The position numbers were made by a program, and so were the translations under genes. From a virus, in IMG/VR virus record IMGVR_UViG_3300035130_000040, positions 1 through 20,410 of that record: a stretch of 20,410 bases of DNA; one strand, written 5' to 3'. The notes under the pieces were generated by a model, which saw nothing but the letters and a program-made list of their open reading frames with translations, made no database searches and was not told the DNA's origin. Below are positions 4,780 to 16,350 of this stretch, one piece after another (position 1 is the stretch's first letter; every line of letters begins with the position of its first letter).

Positions 4780-7154
4780 ACTTTCGGCCTCGCAAAACAC
4801 CGGCAACGTGGATGTGCCGGAGGTTTGTATAACTTACCAGTTCTGGGATGTCGCCACCCCTCACGGAAGTTTCCAACCACCCCATGCAATGGCCCGCAAA
4901 TCTCACACACCAATTGATCGCGTACCGTCTGCCAGATACCTTCCGTTACACCCGCCTGCTCCCACCGGTTAAACGCGCCTTCGGCATAGGCGCGGGTCGT
5001 TTCGGTCTGGGCGATGTTTTCAGCGCGGGCAGCATCATGGAATAGCTTTTCCAGTTCCTTTTTAAGCGCCGATAACGGTTGCCCACTGGACATCCACGCG
5101 GCAAAGGTTTTCCGTACCTGTTCACGGGTGGTGTCGTCCAATCGTTTAATCAGGTTAAACACATACGACTGGACAAAATCATAGGCTTGTTTATCCAGCA
5201 GTGACCAATCCACTTCTACTGGCGCGGCTTTATTCGGGTTGGGAATATCCCGTTGCAACGCCTCACTCCCCGCTGCCATGCCCGCCAACACCAACTTGGC
5301 TAATGTGCCGGGTTTCTCTGGTGTACCGACCCACTCATCAACCAACCCTTGCCGATTGGCACTCAGGGCGCTATCCAGTTGTTCCTCGTCGTAGTGTTCC
5401 CCAACTTGCGCCTCAATCTGGTTCCACGCTTGCGCCATGTAATCGGTTATCCAGGCGTTACCAATCGCCTCTAATAGTTGGTCGTATCGCTGCCAATACT
5501 GGTCATACTGTTCAGGTATAGCGGCTTCCGGCTCGTCAACGGGCTTTTTTTTTAGCATCCGCTGCGCCATTGTAAACACGGTGCGGATGCTGGCGTAATC
5601 CAAATCAGGCGTTAACTGCGCCCGCACATACCGTTCCACATCCTGCGGTAAGGTATACGTCTGGAATTTCTGGGCTTTGCTGGCTCCCCGATTAAGCGCT
5701 TTCTTTTCCCACGCCCTCAACTCTTTTTCGGAATTTTCCTGCGGTGCGGGTAAGGCTTTGGGTGTTTCCGGTTGGGTTAACCGGGCCGGTTCGGGGTTCG
5801 GCGTAATTCCACGCTCTAACTGAGCCGCTTCAAACGGTGGCGCAATGGTACTCCCAAAGGGCGGGTAGGTTTGCGCCGGTTGCATTTCGCCAATTTTGTC
5901 GGCGGTCACTTGCACAACACTTGTTGGGATATAAAACACATTGCCATTCTCCAATGGTTTCTGCCCGATTTCCTCCCGGTATTCATTCAGTGAAATACCG
6001 CCACTGGTCAATTTGCTATTGGCAACCTGTATCTTTTCCAGGGCGTTCTCCGTAAGCGCCATAATCGCCGTTGCATCAAACGCAACTTCATTCTGGTTGC
6101 CCTCGTCAAAATACGGCAGAATGTCCTGTGTCCAATCCCGCGCCATTTCTTCGGCTTCCGGGATAATGGTTTCTTCATACAGGGATCGCCGCTGTTCTGG
6201 GGCGCTCTGGTACTGGGCATCATCCCAAGCCCCCGCAATGGACAACGGCACACCGAAGGCGGCGCAGATTTCCCGACGTACCGACTCGCGTAATTCCACG
6301 TCGTCAATACTGGGGGCCTTCTGGATTTCCTTCACTTCCTTAATGACTTTGGGACTGATAGCCGGTTTTCCCGCATTCTTTGGTCCGCCAAAATTTTTCT
6401 TCCACAAATCAATCAGACGTTGTCCTTCGTCCTTACTCAGATCCCGTTCTGGTAGCAAGAGCAATCCCGGTCGTGCGTCATTGTCATACCAGGACTTGGT
6501 AACGCGGGTGATGTCTTTATCCAGTCCCACTTCCAATAAACACGTTTCAAATCGGGATAGACCGCGCAAGTCATCAAACGGATTGTCGGTCTTAAAGAAC
6601 ACCACCTGGTCGGGGGTTAATAACTTCAGCCGCCCGCCATAAGTTGGCGTGTACATATACTGGCTGATGTATCCCTGAGTGGTATCCACGTCCACACTCA
6701 GGTTGTTCAACCATTGGATCTCTCGGTAATATCCGTAATCATTTTTGGTCGGATAAAAAAACGTCTCGCCCCAAATCAACTTTGACCACTCGTGTTTACG
6801 AATAGGTCGGGACTTGCCCCACTGCATGGCATAGGTAAGGGGGTGGTCATCCAGCCGCTTTTTGGTCTGCTTATCCTGCACAAACCAGTCCAAACGATTT
6901 AATGAAGCCGCCCGAATTTCCACACACCGCGCCGCCCACACCGAAACAATGCTGGCATAGGCATACCCTTCCGGGGAACTTGTAATCGGTACGTTGCTAT
7001 AGGCGTTGACCAGTTCCCCAAACAGCGGTGATGAAATCGACTTAACCGCTTTTAGATTGCCCCGCGAATCGACGGTGTACGCAATCGGTAATTGCTCTGG
7101 CTTGGGGGGCGGTGTGCCGGTAATACTCGCTTTAATGCGGCTCAATACACTCAT
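4776..7154 (-). CDS. Portal protein fused to a Mu gpF/SPP1 gp7-like minor head domain
   Basis: 792 residues. Residues about 30-420 match an HK97-family portal, the dodecameric DNA gate of the head: YAYASIVSVWAARCVEIRAA, then DQVVFFKTDNPFDDLRGLSR and FGVPLSIAGAWDDAQY. A Pro-rich linker follows (about 425-480). Residues about 650-792 match the Mu gpF-like head morphogenesis domain: TRAYAEGAFNRW, then C750-x2-C753, H757, and PPAHPRCRC with H781, C784 and C786. Portal and MuF proteins are separate in Mu and SPP1, though such fusions occur in other phages. The ATG lies three bases after the large terminase stop and the 3' end overlaps the gp10-like gene by ATGA. The C-terminal Cys/His set could bind a metal, which is inference. 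Confidence 0.9.
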   Translation of the reverse strand: MSVLSRIKASITGTPPPKPEQLPIAYTVDSRGNLKAVKSISSPLFGELVNAYSNVPITSSPEGYAYASIVSVWAARCVEIRAASLNRLDWFVQDKQTKKRLDDHPLTYAMQWGKSRPIRKHEWSKLIWGETFFYPTKNDYGYYREIQWLNNLSVDVDTTQGYISQYMYTPTYGGRLKLLTPDQVVFFKTDNPFDDLRGLSRFETCLLEVGLDKDITRVTKSWYDNDARPGLLLLPERDLSKDEGQRLIDLWKKNFGGPKNAGKPAISPKVIKEVKEIQKAPSIDDVELRESVRREICAAFGVPLSIAGAWDDAQYQSAPEQRRSLYEETIIPEAEEMARDWTQDILPYFDEGNQNEVAFDATAIMALTENALEKIQVANSKLTSGGISLNEYREEIGQKPLENGNVFYIPTSVVQVTADKIGEMQPAQTYPPFGSTIAPPFEAAQLERGITPNPEPARLTQPETPKALPAPQENSEKELRAWEKKALNRGASKAQKFQTYTLPQDVERYVRAQLTPDLDYASIRTVFTMAQRMLKKKPVDEPEAAIPEQYDQYWQRYDQLLEAIGNAWITDYMAQAWNQIEAQVGEHYDEEQLDSALSANRQGLVDEWVGTPEKPGTLAKLVLAGMAAGSEALQRDIPNPNKAAPVEVDWSLLDKQAYDFVQSYVFNLIKRLDDTTREQVRKTFAAWMSSGQPLSALKKELEKLFHDAARAENIAQTETTRAYAEGAFNRWEQAGVTEGIWQTVRDQLVCEICGPLHGVVGNFREGWRHPRTGKLYKPPAHPRCRCFARPKV

Positions 7155-7157
7155 GCT

Positions 7158-8675
7158 TTACCAATCTAAAATAATAAAATCGCCCAGAGGCATGGAAGCG
7201 CCATACCACGCCTGGATAACCGGGTCTGCATAATCGGTAGACCGCCCGGTACGTTTCTTAATGTCCTCTTTGCTTTCCACGATGATTTTGCCCCCACGCC
7301 GCTTATAATGTGGAGCGCGTAAATCCTGCCGAAGTTTACGATTCGGGGGCAAGCAAATCGCCTCATTACTGGTTGGGTCAAGAGCCTCTCGGAATGTCCA
7401 CCACCATAATGAGCGTTGGTTAGCAAAGAAATACTTACCGGACTTGTCGGTAACATTTCCGGCGCTTTCCCCGGCATTCATCGGGATAACCTCATGAGTC
7501 TTTTTGAGGACATCATGAACACTTGCCCCGATTCCCAGAGTGTCCAAGTAAACCGGTACATCCGCACCATGCAACGCCTGGATAATCAATTCCGCCCCGC
7601 TATCCCCATCGTAACTACCGGCATAGCCTTCCACCTCGAAGTAACTACCATACAACCATGCCAGTCCAAATTCGTCCGTGCCACCCCGTTTGGGGTCTGC
7701 GCCCAACGCTGCCAACGCCAAATCGGGGTTTCCCTGTTCACGCCAACGCTTTTCCGCTTCCAATATCCATTCAGTAGGGATAACTTGCCAGTCGTCATCT
7801 TTGCGGCCAACTGTCATGTCACCCGTCAGGAGTTGAGTACGTAACGGTTCGGGTAAGGTGTTTAACTGATCGCGGTAATTGGTTCGCATCAGCACCGGGT
7901 TATCTTCTACCCGTGCATGAAAGAAAGTACGCGATTGCGGGGTGAATGTCATGTCATCAATGACCACTGACTCACCGGTTTCAACTTCCACGTCCTTATC
8001 ATCTTGCCGGATGAAATACCGTATTTCCCCGTCCTCTGCCGGATGGGTATGGTCAGGATTAATCCAGGGCGCGAAGTATTCAATAAGCCATTCCCCGCGT
8101 TCATCGGGTGGATTGAAGGTTAAGACTACTTGGGTATGTTGGGATTCATCTTCGGTACGTAACCAGCCCATGAGCATCCGCACAACCAATTCATCAAATT
8201 CACTCGCCTCATCAATACCGATGAAATCGCGCCCGCGTCCCCGATATTTGCGCACATCCTTAATCCGCTCGGCAGAGGTTGCCATGCAAAAGCCGCCGCC
8301 GGGTAATTCCCACCGTCGCTTTTCACCGCGCACAAACGAAGCCTGACCGTCCAGGATGGAATCACCCCGCTCAATCAAGTCTTGCAAATCGGGGTTATTC
8401 AGACGATAGATAGCGCTGCGTTTGAATTGAGTGAACGCCTTACCCAATAACAGGTCAGTCTTGCCACCCCCCGCTGCGCCCCCATACCCGATAACATCGG
8501 CGGTGCAATGGTAGGCTTGTTCTTGTGGGCTATTCGGAAAGGGTTGCCAGAGGGGTATAGAATCCCTGTTTTCATTGAACGATTGAATCAGCGCGTCCAT
8601 CTCTTCGAGTTCGCGCTGCGTTAAGTAACTCTGCAAGTCGTTCAGTTCGTTCTTTGTCGGTAAGGATAGTGACAC
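7158..8675 (-). CDS. terL: Terminase large subunit (packaging ATPase and nuclease)
   Basis: 505 residues from a GTG. The ATPase domain shows Walker A GYGGAAGGGKTD (residues 63-74, K72), Walker B FIGIDEASEF (D155, E156) and a coupling motif LTFNPP (185-190). The nuclease domain has the RNase H-like acidic residues: D327 in GADPKRGGTDEF, D378 in VYLDTLGIG, and D481/D484 in STDYADP. All motifs are intact, so the enzyme should translocate and cut DNA through the portal encoded next. The GTG start overlaps the small terminase gene by 104 bases and has only a weak ribosome site. An ATG at 8600 (residue 26, preceded by GAAGAG) would shorten the protein without touching a motif. Function is secure, start is not. 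Confidence 0.95.
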   Translation of the reverse strand: MSLSLPTKNELNDLQSYLTQRELEEMDALIQSFNENRDSIPLWQPFPNSPQEQAYHCTADVIGYGGAAGGGKTDLLLGKAFTQFKRSAIYRLNNPDLQDLIERGDSILDGQASFVRGEKRRWELPGGGFCMATSAERIKDVRKYRGRGRDFIGIDEASEFDELVVRMLMGWLRTEDESQHTQVVLTFNPPDERGEWLIEYFAPWINPDHTHPAEDGEIRYFIRQDDKDVEVETGESVVIDDMTFTPQSRTFFHARVEDNPVLMRTNYRDQLNTLPEPLRTQLLTGDMTVGRKDDDWQVIPTEWILEAEKRWREQGNPDLALAALGADPKRGGTDEFGLAWLYGSYFEVEGYAGSYDGDSGAELIIQALHGADVPVYLDTLGIGASVHDVLKKTHEVIPMNAGESAGNVTDKSGKYFFANQRSLWWWTFREALDPTSNEAICLPPNRKLRQDLRAPHYKRRGGKIIVESKEDIKKRTGRSTDYADPVIQAWYGASMPLGDFIILDW

Positions 8676-9012
8676 GCTCGGTTGCTTTACCTTCCAATAG
8701 TTGCAACTTGTCTACAAAAATACCAAATGCCGTTGCTAATTCTTTGAAATCCGCGTCCGGTCGGGCATTGGGCAATTCAAAAATAATGGCTTGTAACTCA
8801 TCCCGGATCGCCTCTTTTAAATCAAAATTTTTGATTAGCACAGTTTTGTGCGGTGCAGGATTATATTCACGCCTGGCCCAACGAGACAGCGTTTGATGTT
8901 TAATACCCAACTGACGCGCTGTTCGCACGATTGCGCCTTTGGTGTCAGGGTATCCAGCAGCTTCCAACATTGCAATCGCCTGGGCGCGAAACTCATCACT
9001 GTAGCGAGCCAT
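8572..9012 (-). CDS. terS: Probable terminase small subunit (HTH DNA-binding)
   Basis: 146 residues. The N-terminus (about 5-55) is a helix-turn-helix of the kind seen in terminase small subunits and IS3-type transposase orfA proteins: FRAQAIAMLEAAGYPDTKGA followed by VRTARQLGIKHQTLSRWARR. The rest is helical and charged, ending ERLAELLNAARTRRDGRADS, compatible with oligomerisation. It would recognise the packaging site and load DNA on the large subunit encoded immediately downstream and overlapping it. The ATG overlaps the preceding stop as TAATG. No transposase catalytic gene is nearby, which favours the terminase role. The assignment rests on HTH plus position. Confidence 0.78.
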   Translation of the reverse strand: MARYSDEFRAQAIAMLEAAGYPDTKGAIVRTARQLGIKHQTLSRWARREYNPAPHKTVLIKNFDLKEAIRDELQAIIFELPNARPDADFKELATAFGIFVDKLQLLEGKATERVTILTDKERTERLAELLNAARTRRDGRADSIVQ

Positions 9013-12165: not shown

Positions 12166-12623
12166 TAGGCGGTTACCACTTTATCACTATACAGCGCATA
12201 CTTAACGGTGTTGCTTGTTGCGGCTAGTTGCTGCCCAGTGTCATTTTTGACCAGAATCTTAAAATGTCCGTTTGGCGGATTCGAAATTTGCACGGTCAAT
12301 ATTCGCGCCGTCGTTGCGGCATCGAATACCAAACTGGCGGCGAGATTGGTCGGGGAAGGATCATTACTGGCATCCCCATAACTGTAGGTTGTACCCCCAT
12401 CAATGGATGGTAGGAAATACAGATCAATGCTCCCCCCTGCATCGCGGGCGCTGCCCTGCGTATCCAAATCCACCTCAACCATAATGTATTTATTGCCGTC
12501 CGTACCGTTATCAATCGCACCACCCAATACCCGACCCCCATCGGCCAACGCATTGAGTTCAGTGGTTAAATAGGACGTGCCACTATCGGGATGATCCCCG
12601 TAGTTAATCGGATTATCAGCCAT
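12165..12623 (-). CDS. Beta-rich virion protein, function unknown
   Basis: 152 residues. A likely single jelly-roll: [20 protein letters not shown], then [20 protein letters not shown] and [20 protein letters not shown], with alternating strands and Asp/Gly turns. The N-terminus ([20 protein letters not shown]) is polar. No signal peptide. It resembles in style the 145-residue protein downstream of the capsid gene, since both describe 'expected value' type beta domains, but identity is low by eye. It overlaps both neighbours as TAATG. Virion placement is inferred from the operon. Confidence 0.68.
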
Positions 12624-13042
12624 TAGAATTGCGCCCTCGCTGCTACCACATCACCCTCTGTCACATCACCCAGCCCCAATTCCACTACACGGCTACACGC
12701 CGGATTTGCCAAATCAACGAAATTGGCAAAGGTGGTGGTCTGATTATCGAATATGCCACTCGCCCCAACCAATTGCGATTTAACACGCGCAGAGTTTTGC
12801 ACCTGAATATCGCCACCCAATTGGGTAATCCGATCAATCGTTGCTTTGTCATCCGCAGATAACGCCTGCCATTCGGTTTCATCAATCGCATTGTACAAAT
12901 CCGCACCGGATACGGTCGCACGCTTATAGGTTCGATCCACCGTATACAGGCTGGTCACAACTTCACTGTCCGACATTCCAGCATACCCCCGTGTCAAGGG
13001 GTCGGTACTCAGTTCAATAACCAATAACGGCATGTTTGCCAT
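12623..13042 (-). CDS. Conserved phage protein of the virion module, function unknown
   Basis: 139 residues from the ATG at 13042, chosen because GAGGT lies seven bases upstream; a longer frame exists but would run through the tRNA-like element. The sequence carries a pattern I have seen in many environmental phage genomes: [17 protein letters not shown], then [20 protein letters not shown], then [16 protein letters not shown] and a C-terminal region with [10 protein letters not shown]. It is mostly helical and soluble. No enzymatic motif is visible. As first gene of the virion operon it may be produced in large amount. Function unknown. Confidence 0.75.
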
Positions 13043-13126
13043 CGTTAACCTCACAAACCACGCGCCCCGGCTGCTCACACCAGGGCGCTCGTTAAGGGGT
13101 ACACAAGCCAGGGGGCGGCTCGTGTG

Positions 13127-13199
13127 TGGCATTGGCGGGAATCGAACCCGACATCCTACCGGCAACACGCCGATAGCCCTGGCCTCCAGGTGCAACGCC
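13127..13199 (-). tRNA. Degenerate tRNA-like element, isotype unclear (possible Thr-TGT)
   Basis: The minus strand reads as a 73-base cloverleaf. The acceptor stem GGCGTTG pairs with CAATGCC (seven pairs, one G-U) with discriminator A; the T-loop TTCGATT sits on four G-C type pairs. CCA is not encoded. The D-arm is reduced to CCTG-GAGGC-CAGG, position 8 is C instead of U, and the anticodon arm can pair seven or eight bases with loop CGTGTTG, which lacks U33. By position the anticodon would be TGT. The acceptor complement at exact distance and the B-box-like GGTTCGATTCC argue for tRNA origin, while the poor D and anticodon arms argue for a decayed or non-canonical molecule, or an attachment-site remnant. 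Confidence 0.45.
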
Positions 13200-13203
13200 G
13201 CAA

Positions 13204-13219
13204 GGAGGCCGAAGCCTCC
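13204..13219 (-). other. UUCG-tetraloop hairpin five bases before the tRNA-like element
   Basis: Minus-strand RNA forms GGAGGC-UUCG-GCCUCC, a perfect six-base stem with an extra-stable tetraloop. No U-run follows. It could mark the 5' leader of the tRNA-like transcript or act as a processing block. Confidence 0.65.
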
Positions 13220-13373
13220 GGGTGTATCCTACCCCGCCAACATCGGACGGCTCAGATACGAAAAGACATGGGGAAAATTTTGGCGGGTATACGCAGAAGT
13301 TGCCTCCTTCTGTGTAGTTATTCCCAAAATCGAAAGTGCATTCCACCCCATGCCCGGAATGCCAATGCAATGC
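13220..13373 (-). other. Gene-free, structured intergenic stretch
   Basis: No convincing gene lies here. In minus-strand RNA there is a hairpin CAGAAG/CTTCTG (13312-13294) whose loop holds GGAGG, and a longer-range perfect eight-base pairing CCCGCCAA with TTGGCGGG (13287-13280 with 13240-13233). No good sigma70 promoter was found after the terminator, although the downstream virion genes need one. The stretch may be an untranslated leader or a small RNA. Confidence 0.4.
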
Positions 13374-13405
13374 AAAACGTCTGCACACCCCGGCGCAGAC
13401 GTTTT
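13374..13405. terminator. Bidirectional intrinsic terminator between replication and virion modules
   Basis: A perfect 11-base inverted repeat (AAAACGTCTGC and GCAGACGTTTT) flanks a ten-base loop. On either strand the RNA forms a GC-containing stem ending in four U residues. On the minus strand it lies 52 bases after the stop of the gene at 13458 and would end that transcript. Confidence 0.85.
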
Positions 13406-13457
13406 AAGAAAGGGAATTCAGATAGAAACTCAACTTACACTATAACCGAAAAACAGA

Positions 13458-13775
13458 TTATTTGTCAAGTTTGAGTTTAGTTAGTGGCTTTCCATCAAGG
13501 TATCTTAACGCTCTCTTCTGGGTTATCCCGGCATAATAGCAGACATAATTCACGATCTGCATTCCCCAATACCCACGTTGCCGCGCCAGATTGTACCCGC
13601 ATTCCACCGCTGCTGTGCAATCATGCTCAAACGCCGCCCCTAAAACGGTAGACGGTTTTGGTGGTGTTTTGAGCGCCGCCACTTCGGTTTGGCGTGCTTT
13701 GGTGGTGGGCTGTGTACCATCGATTTTGGTCTGATTGGTTTTCGATTTAACGGGAATATACGTTCCGATTGCCAT
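13458..13775 (-). CDS. Small hypothetical protein, last gene of its transcript
   Basis: 105 residues from the ATG at 13775, selected because GAGG sits five bases upstream and a TTGCAT/TATACT promoter lies just before it; a longer frame would include the promoter. The N-terminal 45 residues are Lys/Thr/Pro-rich and probably disordered. The C-terminal 60 are more ordered: AAFEHDCTAAVECGYNLARQ, then VNYVCYYAGITQKRALRYLD, the last part resembling a short helix-turn-helix (GITQKRALRYL) and followed by a Lys-rich tail. A DNA-binding role is possible but not established. It has its own promoter and ends at the bidirectional terminator, so it may be expressed independently of the genes upstream. Confidence 0.65.
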   Translation of the reverse strand: MAIGTYIPVKSKTNQTKIDGTQPTTKARQTEVAALKTPPKPSTVLGAAFEHDCTAAVECGYNLARQRGYWGMQIVNYVCYYAGITQKRALRYLDGKPLTKLKLDK

Positions 13776-13801
13776 GTAACCCTCGCATACCGTTTTCCAA
13801 C

Positions 13802-15757: not shown

Positions 15758-16350
15758 CAGCCTATCCTTTCACACCGGCTATAGGGGGCATAAATCACTG
15801 CCCCCGTCGCGCCGAATTGTGCTGCATACACTTTCGCCCGCCCATGTTCTACCTGCTGGACAACACCCCGTCCCCATCGGGAGACTTGCACGGTATCCCC
15901 TGGATGCACGTGGCGCTTGCTGTATTGGAATGTCTTCTCCAGATAGTCCCGGAAGTCTACAGGGTACGTATCATCGGAAAGCGGTTCTAACCGGTCGGTG
16001 TCGGGATTGTAGTTGCATGTACCGACCCCGATTACAGCGACGGCTTTCGCCTGTTTGATGACTTCAATAAAGAGTGCCGTGTTGTCTACAGCGTGAACGG
16101 CTTGTTCTCCACTGTCAGCCAGTCGATGTTGCTCAGGTCGTCGGTCGCGCTGTTCTTGCGAAAGAGATACACATTGCGTTGATCGCGCCATTGGAACCGA
16201 GAGCAAAACACGCGCGCGGTTCTTTCCAAGTGGGTCTTTTTGTATGGACTTCCGTTTTGGGTAACAACCCAAATGGTGTCGTTGCTGCTTACGGGCTTGT
16301 GTTGCTGCATAATGTTTTCTCCTCACTAATTTAGAATATTTGGTGTTCAT
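15757..16350 (-). CDS. Protein with KOW/SH3-like C-terminus; start and N-terminal frame in doubt
   Basis: The open frame is 197 codons. From about 16080 down it looks like a real protein: VDNTALFIEVIKQAKAVAV, IGVGTCNYNPDTDRLEPLSD, a charged middle, then HPGDTVQVSRWGRGVVQQVE and a beta-rich end like a KOW or SH3-type barrel. Upstream of 16086 the same frame reads as Arg/Gln/His-rich low-quality sequence and competes with a better protein in another frame (16086-16310). No ATG, GTG or TTG occurs in the convincing part. Either the ATG at 16350 (ATGA overlap with the preceding stop) is used and the region is dual-coded, or a -1 frameshift or a one-base deletion joins the 74-residue protein to this part. 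The C-terminal half is solid; the start is not. Confidence 0.6.
   Translation of the reverse strand: MNTKYSKLVRRKHYAATQARKQQRHHLGCYPKRKSIQKDPLGKNRARVLLSVPMARSTQCVSLSQEQRDRRPEQHRLADSGEQAVHAVDNTALFIEVIKQAKAVAVIGVGTCNYNPDTDRLEPLSDDTYPVDFRDYLEKTFQYSKRHVHPGDTVQVSRWGRGVVQQVEHGRAKVYAAQFGATGAVIYAPYSRCERIG
16086..16310 (-). CDS. Small hypothetical protein, possibly the true N-terminal part of the next frame
   Basis: 74 residues with an excellent ribosome site (GAGGAG eight bases before the ATG). The sequence is natural in composition and beta-rich: SSNDTIWVVTQNGSPYKKTH, then FCSRFQWRDQRNVYLFRKNS, ending NIDWLTVENKPFTL. Codons favour G or C at third position as in neighbouring genes, unlike the overlapping 197-codon frame here. 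It stops (TAG) exactly where the other frame becomes convincing, so the two may be one interrupted or frameshifted gene of about 183 residues. Function unknown. Confidence 0.68.
   Translation of the reverse strand: MQQHKPVSSNDTIWVVTQNGSPYKKTHLERTARVFCSRFQWRDQRNVYLFRKNSATDDLSNIDWLTVENKPFTL

Follow-up and report, generated by a model that had tools for sequence, protein, structure and literature searches.

A conserved, non-decoding tRNA-like element upstream of the terminase gene in a small clade of phages

Location and structure of the element

What is a tRNA-shaped sequence with an abnormal anticodon arm doing in a gap between phage genes? The question is raised by 73 nt of an IMG/VR virus record, the whole of which (20,410 bases) was analyzed and is referred to here as the window. 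Open reading frames taken as genes all lie on the minus strand of the window, and include those for capsid, portal, terminase (recognized via relatives), a DUF1064/Holliday-resolvase-like protein, two methyltransferases and a DnaB-like helicase. The original prediction placed the element in a gene-free junction. The gap is indeed free of genes, but it separates two minus-strand genes and carries a match to a sigma-70-like promoter on that same strand. The element and the genes that serve as landmarks are as follows.

13127..13199, minus strand: tRNA-like cloverleaf, 5' end at 13199 and discriminator A at 13127 (minimum free energy (MFE) and centroid folds, mechanical scan, stem check)
12623..13042, minus strand: downstream gene with no family assigned; its ATG lies about 85 nt past the element and is preceded by GAGG
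13458..13796, minus strand: upstream gene with no family assigned; its stop codon is overlapped by the promoter -35
7158..8675, minus strand: terminase large subunit gene (terL), the query used for finding relatives

Reading from 13199 to 13127, on the strand of the flanking phage genes, the element opens with an acceptor stem (GGCGTTG/CAATGCC) in which all seven pairs form, one of them G-U, followed by C at position 8. The D stem, CCTG/CAGG, has 4 pairs around a 5 nt loop, GAGGC, with an alternative of 5 pairs around AGG. The anticodon stem, CTATCGGC/GCCGGTAG, is paired at 8 of 8 positions (one G-U) and closes a 5 nt loop, GTGTT, without U33. In the T arm the loop TTCGATT closes a stem paired at 4 of 5 positions; the discriminator, base 73, is A, and CCA is not encoded. 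The stem check thus bears out the structural description given originally, namely tRNA-like acceptor and T arms within 73 bases and abnormal D and anticodon arms.

When the element is folded alone, the cloverleaf is both the MFE and the centroid structure at -33.9 kcal/mol, while folding the plus strand of the region gave no tRNA-like structure. The energy itself is not extreme (z = -2.09, with 5 of 200 shuffles equally good). With longer flanks, and in terms of a secondary-structure model only, keeping the cloverleaf costs at most 3.7 kcal/mol in the window and at most 4.3 kcal/mol in the related contig L005, and its ensemble probability in such a model falls to as little as 0.009 and 0.0014, respectively. 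An open frame at 12623-13195 (minus strand) begins with a TTG inside the cloverleaf and reads into the next gene; it was taken as chance because that gene has an ATG with a GAGG site at 13042.

Comparison with tRNA and other RNA models

ARAGORN did not call the element as a tRNA in the window. The lack of any covariance-model score had been named beforehand as something that would speak against a tRNA-like element; the Rfam tRNA model (RF00005), run by itself, does return a score (18.1 bits, E 0.0045 for the record), but one under its gathering cut-off of 29. The element shares with canonical bacterial and phage tRNAs a four-way cloverleaf of 73 nt, the 7-bp acceptor (7/7 pairs) and a T arm with a TTCRANN loop (TTCGATT, T stem 4/5). 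It differs in its anticodon arm, where a 5-bp stem and a 7 nt loop containing U33 give way to 8 bp and the 5 nt GTGTT, lacking U33, and also in C8 and a D-loop of 3–5 nt.

Other Rfam families stayed far below their cut-offs. A search of the whole window recovered only the T-arm hairpin, as tmRNA (RF00023, 13.6 bits against 47). On a short stretch tRNA-Sec (RF01852) reached 18 bits against 47, and mascRNA-menRNA (RF01684) gave 16.1 bits over the exact span of the element against 42.5. GOLLD and ROOL had no match across the whole window at E<=1, nor was C4 RNA among the Rfam listings for the window or the short stretch.

Distribution among related phages

Terminase searches yielded six records at least 69% identical: the window, L002, L003, L004, L005 and L016 (record G012). 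A cloverleaf is found upstream of terL in four of them, the window, L002 (582-653), L003 (252-316) and L005 (5800-5875). In all four it lies on the terL strand, closest to terL in L005 (about 0.7 kb) and farthest from it in the window (about 4.5 kb), and the first gene downstream of it varies. Contig L004 starts 159 bases ahead of its first listed ORF, and the site of the cloverleaf is not covered. The upstream region of L002 shares two blocks with the window gap at 85–87% identity, and its cloverleaf, downstream of these blocks, has a 9-bp anticodon stem with the loop ATGTC, a D-loop CAGGT, two acceptor mismatches and a G at position 55 of the T-loop. In L003 the anticodon arm is short (5 pairs, 4 nt loop), and the element is immediately succeeded by a terminator-like hairpin and ORFs in reverse orientation.

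Record G012 carries a 41.1-bit RF00005 match about 6.2 kb upstream of terL, on the opposite strand, which ARAGORN missed. With its 6-bp anticodon stem, anticodon loop GGCGAA and T-loop GACAAAA, this tRNA-family gene is abnormal, and it was excluded from the member count. By eye, the same record (L028:8300-8760, more than 0.4 kb) has what appears to be the 5' half of another tRNA ahead of the 41-bit gene, and at about 8680-8745 a piece resembling a T arm and acceptor inside a long inverted repeat.

Wider searches added no members. Five named phages with related terminases have no cloverleaf, apart from one match within an L117 coding region. A search of named phages for similar DNA found none. 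Relatives of the small terminase subunit (terS) comprised 17 loci, of which three lie in the L002, L005 and L016 contigs and were left out of the rescan; the other 14 held no member, giving two weak matches that look like coding sequence, while ARAGORN reported real tRNAs in L043 and L046. Scans of viral contigs with the flanking genes (12623-13045 and 13458-13796) found no relatives of either, and a scan with a ParB-like gene matched L003 and L004 only. Of the two blocks shared with L002 (A and C below), a pattern scan for C hit the L002 contig only, and one for A hit 64 stretches, with the leader in none besides the L002 contig. Contig L072, in which A-like and C-like motifs are adjacent, was considered as a relative of the leader and rejected as coding sequence. 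Searching bacterial genomes with the terminase gave two contigs of metagenome-assembled genomes at 36–40% identity, which are uninformative on the host. Membership so far stands at four, all in one small clade.

Chance controls

A strict scan for the cloverleaf topology in the window, L002, L003 and L005 (60,870 bases) gave 3 matches, all below -29 kcal/mol. In 168,183,810 shuffled bases the same scan gave 137 matches, 15 of them below -29 kcal/mol, so that 0.05 matches, or 0.005 below that energy, are expected by chance in 60,870 bases; the scan thresholds, however, were fixed once the first candidates were already known. L002 escapes the strict scan and is found by a relaxed one, which in turn does not pick up L003. 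Of three ARAGORN tRNAs in the control set, the strict scan recovered one. Across 87 other loci (846,264 bases) it produced two matches, a real tRNA and a weak one (-20.6), and the relaxed scan produced only the same real tRNA.

Dinucleotide shuffles of the 415 nt gene-free stretch of the window reached E<=-27 in 3 of 72,634 cases under the relaxed scan and E<=-29 in 5 of 108,407 under the strict scan. For the corresponding regions of relatives, comparable scores arose under the relaxed scan in 1 of 42,937 shuffles (L002, E<=-27) and 0 of 135,467 (L005), and under the strict scan in 0 of 155,945 (L003) and 1 of 205,893 (L005). Among the relaxed-scan matches listed, weak ones lie in L007, L009 and L011, the last (613-697, -28.1 against an MFE of -28.6) about 1.1 kb upstream of terL; from their appearance these were judged to be coding sequence.

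A chance fold of GC-rich sequence could appeal to the modest energy z-scores, -2.09 for the element and -0.33 for the L002 cloverleaf with its flanks. The topology controls, in both shuffles and unrelated phages, and the recurrence of the cloverleaf in relatives already disfavour this explanation, which we consider highly improbable.

Conservation of shape and turnover of sequence

The four cloverleaves were compared after aligning them manually by structure and verifying the result on the sequences; a MAFFT alignment was out of register. Direct sequence similarity among them is slight. Because their positions match by way of the shared blocks, the window and L002 can be compared pair by pair. 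All five pairs of the D stem and five of the eight in the anticodon stem are changed on both sides and still paired, making 10 of 13 with pairing kept. The outermost T-stem position pairs in L002 and is mismatched in the window, while the two positions beside it are changed on both sides and paired. Two acceptor pairs are likewise changed on both sides and paired, and two are lost in L002 (U-U). The original prediction was to fall if relatives showed no conservation of the paired positions, and this comparison contradicts such an outcome.

Across the members, the anticodon stem has 8–9 pairs in the window, L002 and L005, and the D-loop is 5 nt with GG in all four (NRGGY in three). G1, C56 and A73 are each present in 4/4, and a C always follows A73, without an encoded CCA. 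The anticodon loops, GTGTT, ATGTC, CATAAGC and TTAC, have nothing useful for decoding in common, and none has U33 in place. We conclude that this is a real, conserved, non-decoding tRNA-like element in an unusual setting.

Former phage tRNA genes that have lost anticodon function and are now drifting would be another source of such sequences. Transfer RNAs are frequent in phages, and the 41-bit gene of G012, with its abnormal anticodon arm beside an apparent 5' tRNA half (by eye), would suit this history. However, the stems of the element are paired, its anticodon stem is longer than that of a normal tRNA, compensatory replacement has occurred between the window and L002, and placement is comparable in four records. 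As far as these sequences go, the window/L002 pattern is the opposite of tRNA decay, where pairing is lost. Decay, which had been offered among the original interpretations, is poorly supported in view of the paired stems, the long anticodon stem and the 10 of 13 changed pairs; we regard it as unlikely, though a serious rival to the function proposed below.

The same prediction had also raised the core of a tRNA-derived attachment site, to which the tRNA-like T arm and 3' acceptor strand would be suited. No integrase occurs in any of the six records, most of which are fragments, and none of 200 genomes sampled from a single phylum, which may not be that of the host, carries the 3' segment of the element at up to 1 mismatch. 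The element also lacks an intact anticodon arm and CCA, unlike a tRNA-Asp-like 3' fragment in L116. An attachment site is thus not supported and is the least probable of the explanations considered. The L116 fragment itself (1501-1562, record G008, a distant relative) corresponds to the 3' part of tRNA-Asp(GUC) at 27.7 bits, with the anticodon arm, T arm and CCA intact and the D arm missing, and reads like an attachment-site remnant; G008 also carries a tRNA-Gly.

The predicted leader region

Candidate regulatory features surround the element in the window.

13439..13468, minus strand: sigma-70-like promoter, TTGACA-18-TATAGT, 11/12 consensus match, 239 nt upstream of the element
13374..13405, minus strand: terminator-like hairpin close to where the predicted leader begins (sequence and folds; absent from the terminator-scan list)
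13333..13366, minus strand: conserved block A, a possible GCATTCC/GGAATGC hairpin, 85% identical to L002 274-307
13214..13260, minus strand: conserved block C, 87% identical to L002 468-513, with a GTATCT..GGATAC hairpin a short way 5' of the element
13204..13219, minus strand: GC-rich hairpin GGAGGC-TTCG-GCCTCC directly 5' of the element (folds), able to compete with its D arm
13062..13088, minus strand: terminator-like hairpin in the interval separating the element from the next gene (terminator scan)

Allowing 0-1 mismatches, the window has no promoter match of this kind besides this one, with 0.45 expected. In L003 a candidate promoter (TTGACA-18-TACACT, 10/12) lies on the strand of the element 45 nt upstream of the cloverleaf. 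At chance expectations of 0.6 (window) and 0.3 (L003) in the scanned stretches, such matches weigh lightly. The same scan found none on the strand of the element in L005 and none in the upstream sequence present in L002, where the contig ends. Putative terminators, as hairpins followed by T runs, occur upstream of the element in L003 and L005 and directly downstream of it in L003 and L002; that in L002 has a 9 nt loop, beyond the limits of the terminator scan.

Blocks A and C are better conserved between the window and L002 than the cloverleaf is. The block C hairpin takes the same fold in both and is supported by the consensus fold, and alignment folding shows few double changes in the consensus hairpins of either block. 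Block A has an alternative in a long-range helix of 13346-13353 with 13266-13273. Between 13266 and 13353 (minus strand) the window can thus form either the local hairpin or the helix GCATGGGG/CCCCATGT, which compete; the counterpart in L002 is GCGCGGGT/GCCCGCGC, with two paired changes seen by eye.

A ~85 nt insert of L002 that is missing from the window holds a second T-arm-like stretch, GGTGG TTCAAGT CCACT (within 376-468). The motif GCGCTATAC occurs in L002 at 377, 460 and 573, flanking this stretch and also just before the cloverleaf; its copies number 4 against 0.13 expected.

These surroundings could be read as those of a cis-acting leader, in which cloverleaf and upstream hairpins would control read-through into the late genes (as attenuator, antiterminator or synthetase-binding site) with no need for excision. 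The candidate promoter and terminator-like hairpins around the element, and its location at the head of the packaging genes, are consistent with such control. A switch of this type is a serious rival, since the upstream GGCCTCC is able to pair with GGAGGCC of the D arm, giving two mutually exclusive folds. The first downstream gene is, however, not constant among relatives, and the sequence right behind the element in L003 holds a terminator-like hairpin and ORFs of opposite orientation. We hold cis-acting control to be unlikely.

That L003 arrangement, a stand-alone unit between candidate promoter and terminator-like hairpin, would suit a decoy, that is, a stable mimic titrating a host enzyme that targets tRNAs (such as an anticodon nuclease used in defence, or a toxin directed at the elbow or the ends of tRNAs). 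The elbow and acceptor are kept and the anticodon is altered so as to be unusable for decoding, as a decoy might require. The loops vary among members, though, and a simple decoy would account neither for the placement ahead of the packaging genes nor for the co-conserved upstream blocks. We rate this possibility as unlikely, but as a serious rival too.

Proposed function and relation to known systems

The interpretation as a tRNA mimic that may bind a tRNA-handling enzyme, the first of those originally put forward, gains support from the position of the element and from the conserved shape with changed letters in relatives. We favour, at a probability of roughly 0.4, a non-decoding tRNA-like module whose processing would define RNA ends around a late leader and release a small tRNA-like RNA. 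A sigma-70-type promoter of its own would drive a structured leader of about 300 nt, placed ahead of the packaging and late genes on the minus strand. The element keeps the features gripped by tRNA-end enzymes (a 7-bp acceptor with G1-C72 and A73, and a T arm with a 7 nt loop), its small D-loop with GG could pair with C56 in an elbow contact, and it has not retained a decoding anticodon. Host RNase P, together with RNase Z and the CCA enzyme, would most likely excise the element. Excision would fix the 3' terminus of the upstream leader RNA, create a fresh 5' terminus on the message downstream, and set free a small, stable RNA of tRNA-like shape.

Processing is favoured because the kept acceptor, T arm and elbow fit the needs of the CCA enzyme and of RNase P and RNase Z, the latter two of which grip the elbow (PMC4810234), and because RNase P has precedents in processing phage C4 RNA and viral tRNA-like structures (PMC11143913). 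In the literature searched, no description of a non-decoding phage cloverleaf ahead of terminase genes was found. More tentatively, and with a better than even chance of being wrong, the element may belong to a class of phage leader RNA not described before. Such a leader would be a conserved, structured non-coding RNA ahead of the packaging genes that ends in a dedicated non-decoding cloverleaf (8-bp anticodon stem, 5 nt D-loop with GG), and would have its RNA ends set by the host enzymes of tRNA maturation, by analogy with MALAT1/mascRNA but in a DNA phage.

The mascRNA and menRNA (RF01684) are tRNA-like RNAs cut from MALAT1 and MENbeta by RNase P, each a tRNA-like module on the 3' side of a non-coding transcript with an abnormal anticodon side. 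These are animal nuclear RNAs, and they are offered as an analogue of how the element may work, with no homology claimed. Phages of the lambda type have tRNA genes or a short leader RNA between the late promoter and the late genes. Such tRNAs decode, whereas the element does not, and the likeness is in placement. The C4 RNA is not known to form a full cloverleaf. The P1/P7 C4 antisense RNA is akin to the proposed module as a phage RNA matured by a tRNA enzyme, RNase P (PMC11143913). GOLLD and ROOL are structured phage non-coding RNAs near tRNAs, with tRNAs sometimes located in the GOLLD linker (PMC12286853); they resemble the element as structured phage non-coding RNAs and are much larger. Plant-virus tRNA-like structures (e.g. 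TYMV) also show viral mimicry of the tRNA elbow and acceptor, although they are pseudoknotted 3' ends of RNA genomes (PMC4810234), whereas the element is a cloverleaf encoded in phage DNA.

Stable non-decoding tRNA-shaped phage RNAs are easily missed, as tRNA finders demand anticodon rules, and shape conservation amid sequence turnover can expose them. If the element is a selected mimic, it offers a compact, testable case of a DNA phage turning the tRNA maturation machinery to non-translation use, at a point that may govern the late genes.

One further repeat lies near a member. In L005 the motif TTATTCTTACAAGGG occurs at 5395-5409, 5684-5698 and 15792-15806, as two exact copies and one with 2 mismatches, against 0.04 expected. 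The repeat is possibly a phage-specific regulatory site, and its second copy precedes the cloverleaf by about 100 nt.
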